A DNA stretch of 43,590 bases from Lachnospiraceae bacterium. GTDB lineage: Bacteria; Bacillota; Clostridia; Lachnospirales; Lachnospiraceae. The DNA is taken from contig JAFSGY010000070.1 of assembly GCA_017440575.1 (NCBI GenBank), positions 1 to 43,590 on the forward strand, read 5' to 3'. The translations under genes and the position numbers were made by a program. Below, piece by piece: positions 18,947 to 39,621 of this stretch. Each line of letters begins with the position of its first letter. The first letter of the stretch is position 1. The notes beneath the pieces were generated by a model. It was not told the origin of the DNA and searched no databases. It worked only from the letters and a program-made list of their open reading frames with translations.

Positions 18947-19016
18947 AGACATTAAGCCTGAGGACATTATAACATAATGACTTTCCTTGGGCAAGAGACA
19001 ACGGAGGAAAGACAGC

Positions 19017-20036
19017 ATGAATACGAAAGAAAAACTGAAGAACGATATACTTGTAGGAATGAGAATGTATTTAGAACCGGCAATCATGGCTATATTAGAG
19101 GCAGTTATTGTAAAAGCCGTTCAGAATGTGGAAATGACAGAAATAGAAACTCTGCCGGCAGCAGTCGATGATACGAACAGATACATAATTGAATTGTTTA
19201 TGGCACGTAAGGCAACAAAGCTTAAAAAAAGTACAGTAGAAGCCTATATGCATACAATCCGCGAATTTGTCGCCTTGGTCAATAAGCCGTTGAATAAGGT
19301 GAGTGAGTGCGATGTAGAGTGCTATTTATACCGCAAAAAGCAGTTGAACAATAACAATACTTCTCTGAATAATCTTCGTAGAAATCTATCTGCATTCTTC
19401 ACATGGATGAGAAAGGTTAAAATAATCGGTGATAATCCCTGTGATGGCGTAGAACCATTTAAGCAGGTGGAAAAGCCAATAGATTATCTGGAACCAACAG
19501 ACGTTGAGAAGATTAAGCAGGGTTGCAAGTATAAGCGTGACAGGGCTATTTTGGAATTTATGCGTTGTACAGCAATGCGAAGAGGAGAAGTGCCTCAGGT
19601 AAGGATTAATGATATTGATTTTTCAACAGGAAAGATAGTGATATATGGTCACAAAGCAAGCAGATACCGCACTGTATTATTAGACAGGCTTGCAATGCAT
19701 TTCATTAATGAGTATCTAAAGGAGCGTGGGGTAACGCAGCAAAGCACAGAGCCTTTGTTTACACACCTGAGAGGGGATAAGACAAAGGTATTGGAAGCAG
19801 AAGGAGTATATGCGGCTATTAAAACAATAGCTGGTCGTTCTAAGATTGATAGGAGAGTTTATCCGCACATCTTTAGAAAGACAACCGCAACCAATATCTG
19901 TAAGCGTGGAGGAAGTGAGGATGCAGTAGGAGAGTATTTAGGACATGCACCGAAGAATGTAACAGGAAAGCATTATATTGGAAAGACAGATAGATATGTA
20001 GAACAAATCTTTCATAATTACGTTGAGGCAGTATAG
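19017..20036 (+). CDS. Tyrosine recombinase (XerC/D-like), second recombinase
   Basis: A 339-aa tyrosine recombinase. A SAM-like N-terminal core-binding domain (YIIELFMARKATKLKKSTVEAYMHTIREFV...) precedes the catalytic domain. The catalytic residues are visible: Arg in CTAMRRGEV, Lys near YGHKASRYRT, HxxR in PHIFRKTT, His in YLGHAP, and the Tyr in GKHYIG. CGGAGGA sets the ATG at 19017, and the longer frame from 18987 is rejected. The integrase of this prophage is the serine enzyme, so this one probably has another job: resolving multimers, controlling a DNA rearrangement, or late-gene regulation as its position next to the terminase suggests. It is the best candidate in the window for flipping the cassette at 37789-38462. 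Confidence 0.9.
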   Translation: MNTKEKLKNDILVGMRMYLEPAIMAILEAVIVKAVQNVEMTEIETLPAAVDDTNRYIIELFMARKATKLKKSTVEAYMHTIREFVALVNKPLNKVSECDVECYLYRKKQLNNNNTSLNNLRRNLSAFFTWMRKVKIIGDNPCDGVEPFKQVEKPIDYLEPTDVEKIKQGCKYKRDRAILEFMRCTAMRRGEVPQVRINDIDFSTGKIVIYGHKASRYRTVLLDRLAMHFINEYLKERGVTQQSTEPLFTHLRGDKTKVLEAEGVYAAIKTIAGRSKIDRRVYPHIFRKTTATNICKRGGSEDAVGEYLGHAPKNVTGKHYIGKTDRYVEQIFHNYVEAV

Positions 20037-36815: not shown

Positions 36816-37310
36816 ATGGCATTTGTAATTAAAACATGGGTAGACAGGGTAGTAGAATATGCAGGAAGGCGTAAGTTGACGAATGTAACAACAGGAACAG
36901 AAGAACTGGTGGATGTAGCAAGAAGTGAAGGCACAGTATCAAAGGAAGGGGATGCCTTCAACGCTAAGAATATGAATAATTTGGAACAGAGAATACATGA
37001 TACCTTTGCGGAGGTAACCAAGGTATATACGGATGTAGTGGTAGCAGCTAGTAATTGGGGAACGTACACAGCAACTCTGACAGGCGAATCGGATATAGTG
37101 ACAGAATATCCATATAAAGCGGATATTACGTTAGAAGGTATAACAGCAGAGCATTGTGCCAAGGTAAGCTTTGCACCGGCAGAGATTGCAGATGAAGTTT
37201 TTGCACCCTACAACAACACACAATCTGGTAAGATTAGGATTTATGCAAAGTCTAAGCCGATTGAAGCAATAACCATACCAACAATATACGCAATAAAGAA
37301 AGGGGTATAG
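36816..37310 (+). CDS. Minor tail / baseplate protein
   Basis: A 164-aa protein. The N-terminus (FVIKTWVDRVVEYAGRRKLTNV, then VSKEGDAFNAKNMNNLEQRIHDTF) is a segment often placed at the start of clostridial phage tail fibres. The C-terminal part (TYTATLTGESDIVTEYPYKADITLEGITAEHCAKVSFAPAEI.. and GKIRIYAKSKP) is a small beta-sandwich. It may be a short fibre. It follows the previous gene by 1 nt. Confidence 0.7.
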   Translation: MAFVIKTWVDRVVEYAGRRKLTNVTTGTEELVDVARSEGTVSKEGDAFNAKNMNNLEQRIHDTFAEVTKVYTDVVVAASNWGTYTATLTGESDIVTEYPYKADITLEGITAEHCAKVSFAPAEIADEVFAPYNNTQSGKIRIYAKSKPIEAITIPTIYAIKKGV

Positions 37311-37771: not shown

Positions 37772-38140
37772 ATGTTTAATAGCGAACAAAATAGTAATTT
37801 AACAAGCAAAATAAATCCTAAACTAGCTTTAATATCAGAAAAAACATATAATACAGACGCAAATTCTAATACATACACTTTTACAAAAGACTATGCGCAA
37901 GTTTTGTATATTGGAATTGGTTCTGATAATCAGTATAGTGGTGCGTATGAGCTTAAAAGTACAACTATTTCTGATTACAAAACTTTATTTACATCTAAGT
38001 TTTCAGATACAGAGGGTGGCGGTGGAATGGTACAAGTGTTAATAATTCTACTGAATGATGTCAAAGCAGGTGATACCATTACTCACTACTCATATGATAC
38101 AGCGAAGGAGTATATTTATGACTTAGTAAATGAAACTTAA
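37772..38140 (+). CDS. Tail-tip protein with invertible variable domain (expressed allele)
   Basis: A 122-aa protein made of a constant start (MFNSEQNSNL) and a variable domain (ALISEKTYN..YTFTKDYAQVLYIGIG...NDVKAGDTITHYSYD). The variable part is homologous to that of the opposite-strand module at 38150-38449. GGAGGTATAAGCT precedes the ATG, and the gene is the last of the tail operon. The 14-bp repeat at 37789-37802 spells NSNL at the border between constant and variable parts. Position after baseplate genes, small beta-rich fold and paralogous alternatives suggest a receptor-binding or surface protein with phase variation. The family is not recognised. Confidence 0.75.
   Translation: MFNSEQNSNLTSKINPKLALISEKTYNTDANSNTYTFTKDYAQVLYIGIGSDNQYSGAYELKSTTISDYKTLFTSKFSDTEGGGGMVQVLIILLNDVKAGDTITHYSYDTAKEYIYDLVNET
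37789..37802 (+). repeat. Left inverted repeat of the invertible cassette
   Basis: AAATAGTAATTTAA, exact reverse complement of 38449-38462. Read in frame as NSNL. A further TTTAATA lies a few bases outside on both sides. Confidence 0.85.
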
Positions 38141-38149
38141 TAAATTGAT

Positions 38150-38449
38150 TTATATAGTGAATATGATGTAATAAAGTGCAGGATTATATGATATCTGCAC
38201 AGTATCACCTTGTTTTACATCTGTTAATTCATACACTTGTAACTTCGTAGGTGAGCTATAAGAAGTAAAAGATTTATTCTTTATTAAGTTGTAAACACAC
38301 GATATTGATACACTTACAGACACATCCGAATTGTTATGTGCTGCATTAGCTATTAGAACGCAACGTTTATAATCAGATGTGAAAGTGTATTTCATCGAAC
38401 CACTACCACCGCTATATGAATTTTCAGAAATAACAACTATATCACTCAT
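38150..38449 (-). CDS. Silent alternative module of the tail-tip protein
   Basis: A 99-codon frame on the minus strand (MSDIVVISENSYSGGSGSMKY..., then YTFTSDYKRCVLIA and LTDVKQGDTVQISYNP), paralogous to the variable domain of the gene at 37772. The two stop codons are 9 bp apart. No ribosome-binding site or promoter precedes it; the frame continues through NSNL of the inverted repeat to 38512. Inversion between the repeats would join it in frame to MFNSEQNSNL and give a 109-aa protein. It is therefore read as a stored allele and not as an independent gene. Confidence 0.75.
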   Translation of the reverse strand: MSDIVVISENSYSGGSGSMKYTFTSDYKRCVLIANAAHNNSDVSVSVSISCVYNLIKNKSFTSYSSPTKLQVYELTDVKQGDTVQISYNPALYYIIFTI

Positions 38450-38462
38450 TAAATTACTATTT
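38449..38462 (-). repeat. Right inverted repeat of the invertible cassette
   Basis: TTAAATTACTATTT, the exact reverse complement of 37789-37802. It lies just inside the terminator at 38472. Confidence 0.85.
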
Positions 38463-38471
38463 AAACTTATT

Positions 38472-38495
38472 AAAAGGCTGTTATAGGCCTTTTTC
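38472..38495 (+). terminator. Terminator of the tail operon outside the invertible segment
   Basis: AAAAGGC-TGTTATAG-GCCTTTT followed by T-rich sequence. It lies 9 bp beyond the right inverted repeat, so it would end the transcript in either orientation of the cassette. Confidence 0.8.
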
Positions 38496-38628
38496 TTTAG
38501 CAGTAAAATCAAAGAAATTGAGTAAGTAAAAGTATATAAATTTATTTGTGAAATATTGTGAGAAGGTATACTTTTATAAAACAGAAGAACATGTTATATT
38601 AAGGCCATAAACATAAGGAGAATAAGTT

Positions 38629-39621
38629 ATGAAGTATTATGTATATATATCAGAAACAAAAGTTGACATGTTATATAGTCAGATTACAAACATGGAAAGT
38701 GAGCGCTCTTTAAAAAGCGGGCTGAAGGTAGGAATATTGTCAGTAGAGGCAGAAACAAAGAACATAAAATCAGTATATGATAAAATAAACGAAGTTATTA
38801 ATGAGATAGATGACATAGGAGATATATATAGTGATGCAGAATATATTCGAGGAACACTTGCAATGGGGTGGAATGCAAGAAATAAATTGAATTATAAAAG
38901 TAATGCAACATATTGGATTGGAGAAGCAGTGGATGGTGATGGGATTTTAAATAAGATTTTGTTAATAGGGTCGCAACATCATATAATCGGAAATAAAATA
39001 AGCGAAGACTATTGCTATTCTACCTCATATATTGACTCTTTTTTTAATGCTATTGAAAATAGAATAGATTTTGAAACATTAAAATATAATGATAGAGATG
39101 GACAATCGGAGATACGATCAACGGATGATAAAAAAATGATACAAAAAATGAAAGAAAGAAATGCTTCAATTTCCGAAATGAAATTATTTGTTAATGATGC
39201 TTATTTAGCAGATTTTATCGATGAGTTTTCAGGATGGCATAATGGCATATTTCAAGAGTATGAATTTGTTGCGAAACTTTTACATTCAGAAATGAAAGTT
39301 GATAATAGTGGTAATATGATAAGATATGCTATTGCTACTCCGATTTATGTTGTTTTGTTATCGCAGATAGATAAAAGGATAATAATAGAAAAAGGAAGAA
39401 AAAAGTATATATTGACTAGGGCTGAATATGAACAACATAAAATACATGATTTTCGTACAATTCATTTGTTATTAAAAAGAAGTGGATTAGATGAAAATAG
39501 ATTTACCAAAGAGATGAAAGTGCAATATGAAAAGTATAATGGTGGAACAAAAGAATTTAATAGGAGCGAGTTCAACAATAAAGCTATTGAGATAGTTAAA
39601 GAGTATTTTTGTATAGTTTGA
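38629..39621 (+). CDS. DUF7019-like accessory protein
   Basis: A 330-aa protein beginning KYYVYISETKVDMLYSQI and containing ILLIGSQHHIIG, EDYCYSTSYIDSFFNAIENR, and a middle region YAIATPIYVVLLSQI. The start matches my recollection of DUF7019, a family without known function. It is AT-rich compared with the tail genes, lies between two terminators, and has its own AAGGAG; it is probably a lysogenic conversion or defence gene. No direct link to the inversion cassette is evident: no recombinase motif is present. Confidence 0.55.
   Translation: MKYYVYISETKVDMLYSQITNMESERSLKSGLKVGILSVEAETKNIKSVYDKINEVINEIDDIGDIYSDAEYIRGTLAMGWNARNKLNYKSNATYWIGEAVDGDGILNKILLIGSQHHIIGNKISEDYCYSTSYIDSFFNAIENRIDFETLKYNDRDGQSEIRSTDDKKMIQKMKERNASISEMKLFVNDAYLADFIDEFSGWHNGIFQEYEFVAKLLHSEMKVDNSGNMIRYAIATPIYVVLLSQIDKRIIIEKGRKKYILTRAEYEQHKIHDFRTIHLLLKRSGLDENRFTKEMKVQYEKYNGGTKEFNRSEFNNKAIEIVKEYFCIV

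Follow-up and report, generated by a model that had tools for sequence, protein, structure and literature searches.

A probable two-state coding switch in the tail region of a Lachnospiraceae prophage and its likely link to a Xer-like tyrosine recombinase

The window analysed here, an entire contig of 43,590 bp from an assembly of 2.83 Mb (122 contigs, 78% complete), contains a prophage with a serine integrase at its left, a tyrosine recombinase located before the terminase, tail genes extending to ~37.8 kb and lysis-type genes beyond them, several of these gene names being our own reading of the translations. At the end of the tail region lies a plus-strand gene of 122 aa (37772..38140), composed of a constant start, MFNSEQ, the residues NSNL encoded by a putative recombination site, and a first variable module. 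A second module occupies the minus strand (38150..38464) and is open in frame through the right-hand site (NSNLMSDIV...FTI). The left site, AAATAGTAATTTAA, is found at 37789..37802 on the plus strand, with the core AAAAT-AGTA-ATTTA matching TAAAT-nnnn-ATTTA at 9 of 10 positions, and the right site is its exact inverted copy at 38449..38462 on the minus strand, where the core TAAAT-AGTA-ATTTA matches at all 10. Upstream of the pair there is a further plus-strand tail gene (36816..37310), while a gene with a DUF7019 domain (Pfam PF22880, E 8e-31), which is out of place for a structural gene and is possibly a cargo gene, lies at 38629-39621 between the switch and the lysis-type genes.

Our analyses bear out most of the original prediction, which had described the locus as a two-state invertible gene. 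Homology between the plus gene and the minus frame is indeed evident, with 33% over 113 positions and a two-sequence BLASTP E of 2e-7, and their arrangement is tail to tail: the ORFs stop at 38140 and 38150, leaving a gap of 9 bp. The predicted 14-bp inverted repeats were found at both positions and nowhere else in the assembly, which, at 78% completeness, contains a single forward and a single reverse copy of the 14-mer and 0 copies of a reversed control pattern; the arms diverge directly beyond the identical 14 bp, and NSNL is read across both of them. When the segment is flipped in silico, MFNSEQNSNL runs on in frame into the second module, as anticipated, and the gene at 37772 becomes MFNSEQNSNLMSDIVVISENS..., an uninterrupted frame of 109 aa. 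Likewise, only the plus copy has a start signal, since the ribosome-binding-like sequence AGAGGAGG precedes its ATG and nothing similar is present before the minus ATG at 38449. The locus thus has the architecture of a phage tail-gene inverton, with a pair of inverted sites around alternative 3' coding modules, either of which could be joined in frame to one constant start. Two details needed amendment. The right border of the invertible unit is the end of the right arm, 38462, and the previous limit of 38512 is just a mechanical ORF start. On the other hand, the terminator proposed outside the right repeat has a counterpart in a hairpin followed by a T-rich stretch at 38472..38493, but this hairpin is weak (8 bp, -9.1 kcal/mol and a z of -1.44; an equally good fold arose in 20 of 200 shuffles) and does not appear in the list of a terminator scan, so that it can be considered only a possible terminator. 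A promoter scan was uninformative, with 9 promoter-like matches against 8.6 expected.

The 14-bp repeat is not striking by itself, because inverted pairs of at least 14 bp spaced by 250-1500 bp arise 0.27 times per window in first-order Markov sequence of the window composition, the expectation under the local 4-kb composition being 0.01. Once in-frame modules were also required, with a minimum of 90 codons and a coverage no lower than 0.95, 60 Markov replicates gave a count of 0.

As regards the protein, neither module matches a Pfam family above the cut-off, the plus gene has no PHROG match and module 2 shows only weak PHROG matches of unknown function. No close relative of either module was confirmed in viral contigs, nor was a relative of module 2 found in the phage collection. 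For the plus protein, AlphaFold2 modelling on an alignment of two rows gave an almost entirely beta structure of eight strands, with a mean pLDDT of 72.9 and a pTM of 0.69. Among 10 relatives whose inverton genes were compared with PHROGs, three match tail-fibre families (L348, L355, L364) and two a virion structural family. A surface or receptor-binding role of the switch protein therefore appears likely, as judged from the gene position, this all-beta model of moderate confidence and the tail-fibre and lectin matches of relatives.

Single-protein scans of viral contigs with the neighbouring tail genes retrieved no relative, and searches of genomes and phage records with the same genes retrieved distant ones. 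The N-terminal domain of the neighbouring tail gene defines a family, with 54 loci in viral contigs, 14 in genome contigs and 25 in a second viral scan, several of which are repeats. An in-frame scan revealed the same architecture within homologues of this gene in eight loci (L016 from genome G080, L064, L065, L078, L093, L126, L129 and L136). Used by itself, the frame test enriches only about twofold, because scans without a core filter also match in both wrong phases (in-phase to other phases 20:9:10 and 24:9:8 in the tail-gene scans and 19:9:12 in a further scan). When the site core was required as well, the ratio rose to 33:1:1, a count that includes some segments twice, once per direction, as well as 12 loci taken in for having already shown a pair. 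Under this stricter site-plus-frame test, 5 of the 84 tail-domain loci, a set that includes duplicates, pass in phase (L064, L093, L126, L129 and L136) and 0 in the other phases; L065, L016, L078, L284 and L287 do not pass.

The arms of the relatives have in common the dyad core TAAAT-nnnn-ATTTA, read mostly as N-x-N-L or a close variant. Altogether, 23 distinct in-frame invertons, that of the window included, share this core, and all 23 read it at the same codon position, although they are not fully independent because several of the phages are related. Three of the tail-gene homologues (L016, L065 and L078) deviate from the core rule, L065 retaining the dyad with alterations on both sides (AAAC-AGTA-GTTT). 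A relaxed search yielded 10 inverted pairs in recombinase loci against 0.7 expected and 5 in tail-domain loci against 0.3 expected. Exact inverted pairs of TAAATnnnnATTTA with the same centre, 250-1600 bp apart, numbered 10 in 1.42 Mb of pieces of recombinase-bearing records, which overlap slightly so that a few pairs may be counted twice, with 3 more from the tail-domain loci (0.83 Mb); nine permuted cores gave 0 inverted same-centre pairs each in the same sequences. The record of one phage, L376, has an in-frame inverton of this site type at G432:C1:54829-55569 and another at 62611-63228. An inverted repeat resembling a site in G409 encloses no modules and was rejected.

The candidate enzyme is encoded mid-genome on the plus strand at 18987..20036, with a probable start at 19017. 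It matches Pfam PF00589 (E 1.3e-27), its best PDB matches are XerA, a XerC-like protein and XerD, and it falls below the curated cut-off of every NCBIfam model listed. Residues R188, K213, H284, R287, H310 and Y320, which we take to be the catalytic set of a Xer-like core, are invariant in an alignment of six sequences, and ~60-70 residues precede the SAM-like domain. A viral scan confirmed 117 relatives, the best 80 of which represent 78 distinct loci; from these 80 we chose 38 records, of which 33 were scanned complete and 4 in part, all in pieces. An in-frame site inverton is present in 15 of the 37 scanned records. The same criterion detects none in the other 22, many of which are fragments, and four further records display a site pair only, namely G412 (centre mismatch), G428, G430 (2 kb apart) and G433; in the 38th record, G442, the exact core was not found. 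Fisher's test of 15 in 38 recombinase records against 5 in 84 tail-domain loci gives p 1.2e-5, a rough value because the latter loci are shorter, duplicates and related phages are included and three of the five passing loci (L064, L126 and L129) also have the enzyme. In a phylogenetic tree, the window enzyme groups within a supported clade in which 15 of the 48 rows, its own included, come with invertons, and the enzymes of L064, L126, L129, L282, L287 and L284 branch outside it.

In the wider family, the recombinase gene may be found right beside the sites. In L282 it is located between the sites of a tail-gene inverton; the segment L282:9459-12064 contains a tail gene and three inverted-type sites, with the recombinase gene between two of them, and is apparently a self-contained multi-module shuffling locus. 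In L287/L288 a recombinase lies ~0.3 kb from an in-frame inverton with the non-canonical site CGACAGTTTAG, whose module has an H-type lectin domain (H_lectin in L287). In L284/L285 a distant member (26% identity) lies among hsdS genes at a type I restriction locus, where the sites have the same core as the tail-gene invertons, read N-A-N-L; L284 fails the frame test for tail-to-tail modules. In another locus, L292:2533-3042, a 15-bp inverted repeat, AACCAAATAGTGTTT, surrounds ~480 nt and is followed by a hairpin with a T-run; part of this segment looks like a piece of 16S ribosomal RNA, and Rfam gives no match up to E 0.1.

This linkage of family and sites lends support to the preference of the original prediction for a tyrosine over a serine recombinase, and the mid-genome enzyme, its leading candidate, is the most likely invertase. 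The nearest relatives of the window enzyme speak against the assignment, since G408, G409 and G419 (68-70%) exhibit no inverton in the visible records, nor do the short loci L212, L214 and L216, also near relatives, in their visible sequence. The same is true of the prophages L136 and G080/L016, the former with a canonical and the latter with a non-canonical inverton, in which a recombinase of the window type was not found, the one enzyme seen in either being a different sort of integrase. In those two prophages, therefore, either a host enzyme or the integrase acts on the sites, or the switch is idle. Extended to the window, these cases point to the alternative of a real switch worked in trans by a tyrosine recombinase of the host, be it an hsdS invertase, a RecV-type enzyme or XerC/D, in which case the enzyme at 19017 would have another job. 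In favour of this alternative, the hsdS locus L284 combines the shared core with a distant member of the family. In the host of L136 (G397), the two hsdS matches, on C13 and C14, both lie at contig ends, which is what one would see had an invertible hsdS locus interrupted the assembly. Furthermore, RecV of C. difficile works on several switches away from its own gene (PMC5903667, PMC5386303), and a published flagellar-switch repeat, AAGTT(A/G)CTAT(A/T)TTACAAAAAA, resembles the window site on the other strand in a comparison by eye, which is offered as a lead only. Against a host enzyme, no hsdS match was detected in the window's own assembly (78% complete), and the phage recombinase family accompanies the sites in the proportion of scanned records given above. 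We consider this explanation a minority possibility, well behind action of the phage's own enzyme.

Related prophages were also compared, which the original prediction had suggested as a check for swapped modules. A module silent in one phage is similar over 30-35 aa to one expressed in another in the pairs L126/L129 (67%), L136/L126 (60%) and L305/L308 (80%). The labels were set by the longer upstream frame, a rule that swaps them for L064 and for the window, and pairs with L064 were therefore excluded; modules in the same state are also alike between phages, as in L065 and L136, both expressed (44%). No near-identical prophages in opposite orientations were found among the records compared, and hence no pair of records displays both orientations of one phage. 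A sharp boundary is seen between L256 and the G440 record, whose constant parts are unrelated (28.5% identity over the 200 nt before the site) and whose sequences are 98.7% identical over 318 nt from the first base of the arm. This jump in homology exactly at the site indicates that the site served as a recombination boundary; as read from these two sequences, the breakpoint speaks of evolutionary exchange and not of inversion in the window phage.

Alternatively, the locus could be decayed or static, with two convergent paralogous genes and repeats remaining from module acquisition after recombination had ended. That inversion has not been sighted directly, that the arms differ right outside the 14 bp and that the sites mark cassette exchange in evolution would all fit this explanation. 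Nevertheless, both frames are open, the arms are identical, the phase is kept and the silent frame has no start signal of its own, so that we regard a static locus as improbable. As for the large serine integrase (1330-2880), it is the other recombinase of the prophage, but the sites accompany Xer-like tyrosine enzymes and the contig of the G080 prophage has no serine-recombinase match, making its involvement very improbable indeed.

Taken together, we assign a probability of about 0.8 to the reading that 37772-38462 is a two-state invertible coding switch of a small, tail-associated, probably receptor-binding protein, worked by a Xer-like tyrosine recombinase, most likely that encoded at 19017-20036. 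The two-state, in-frame character claimed at the outset is strongly supported by the core, the codon position and the tail-to-tail modules in the 23 invertons, together with the swaps between expressed and silent modules and the homology that starts at the site. According to this model, the phage recombinase would act on the two inverted sites from 18 kb away, and recombination at TAAAT-nnnn-ATTTA would flip the segment of 674 bp. Depending on the orientation, one module or the other would continue the constant MFNSEQ start in the same frame, with the site-encoded NSNL as the link. This start holds the sole ribosome-binding site, and the remaining module would lie silent on the opposite strand. 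For the window prophage itself, inversion is a deduction from sequence.

More tentatively, and with somewhat more doubt than confidence, we suggest that one widespread Xer-like family and one protein-coding site (TAAAT-nnnn-ATTTA, read N-x-N-L) could constitute a currency for cassette exchange common to phage tail genes and hsdS. If this were true, one exchangeable machinery could serve both phages and hosts in diversifying attack and defence, phages devoid of the enzyme could borrow that of the host, and modules would also move between phages via the same site.

That phages switch host-binding proteins by inverting DNA is a long-standing concept, mostly tied to serine invertases such as Gin of Mu and Cin of P1, which generate alternative fibre ends. 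The motif defined here with its fixed codon position, along with a recombinase family, makes such switching findable by sequence alone, and directly testable. The window locus is like Gin and Cin in outcome, namely alternative protein ends, and differs in that its candidate enzyme is a tyrosine recombinase; as the original prediction had stated, no serine invertase adjoins the segment, the only serine recombinase being the large integrase at the left end of the contig, and the arrangement is thus not of the Gin/Cin/Hin type. Tail-fibre inversion by Gin and Cin is named in PMC6109161, which describes the Rin shufflon of bifidobacterial prophages, where a receptor-binding protein with a constant N terminus acquires swappable C termini through short crossover sites and a XerD-like tyrosine recombinase. 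In Rin there are several modules, sites of 11 bp (TTCCCTAACCC) and a recombinase alongside, whereas the window has two modules, a TAAATnnnnATTTA-type site (AAATAGTAATTTAA), only six constant residues ahead of the site and its candidate enzyme at a distance of 18 kb, and so falls outside the Rin type; the same paper also reports a second inverted locus with no recombinase adjacent. In the haloviruses phiCh1, phiH1 and ChaoS9, two inversely oriented fibre genes surround the tyrosine integrase/recombinase Int1, and inversion of the fibre modules is reported as shown in phiH1 and phiCh1 (PMC6471424). These are archaeal viruses with Int1 between the fibre genes, likened to the window by arrangement and not by homology. 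With the Rin and halovirus systems, tyrosine-recombinase tail switching is therefore already known in two other phage groups. A further parallel is PsrA of Streptococcus pneumoniae, a tyrosine recombinase that inverts a segment between 15-bp IR1 repeats within coding sequence and thereby swaps the 3' part of hsdS (PMC7096588 and PMC4948785); its target is a restriction-modification specificity gene and not a tail gene, and the hsdS link proposed here runs through locus L284 and not through PsrA. A survey of hsdS is given in PMC7394358, and C. difficile switches are also the subject of PMC2784873 and PMC8844915. Among the hits listed, at the level of titles and the openings of abstracts, a scope that does not take in Milman et al. 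2023 on gene-altering inversions, we found no report of a phage inverton sharing an hsdS-type site. The window locus differs from the known systems in that its core also occurs at an hsdS locus and keeps one codon position, and in the distance of its candidate enzyme.
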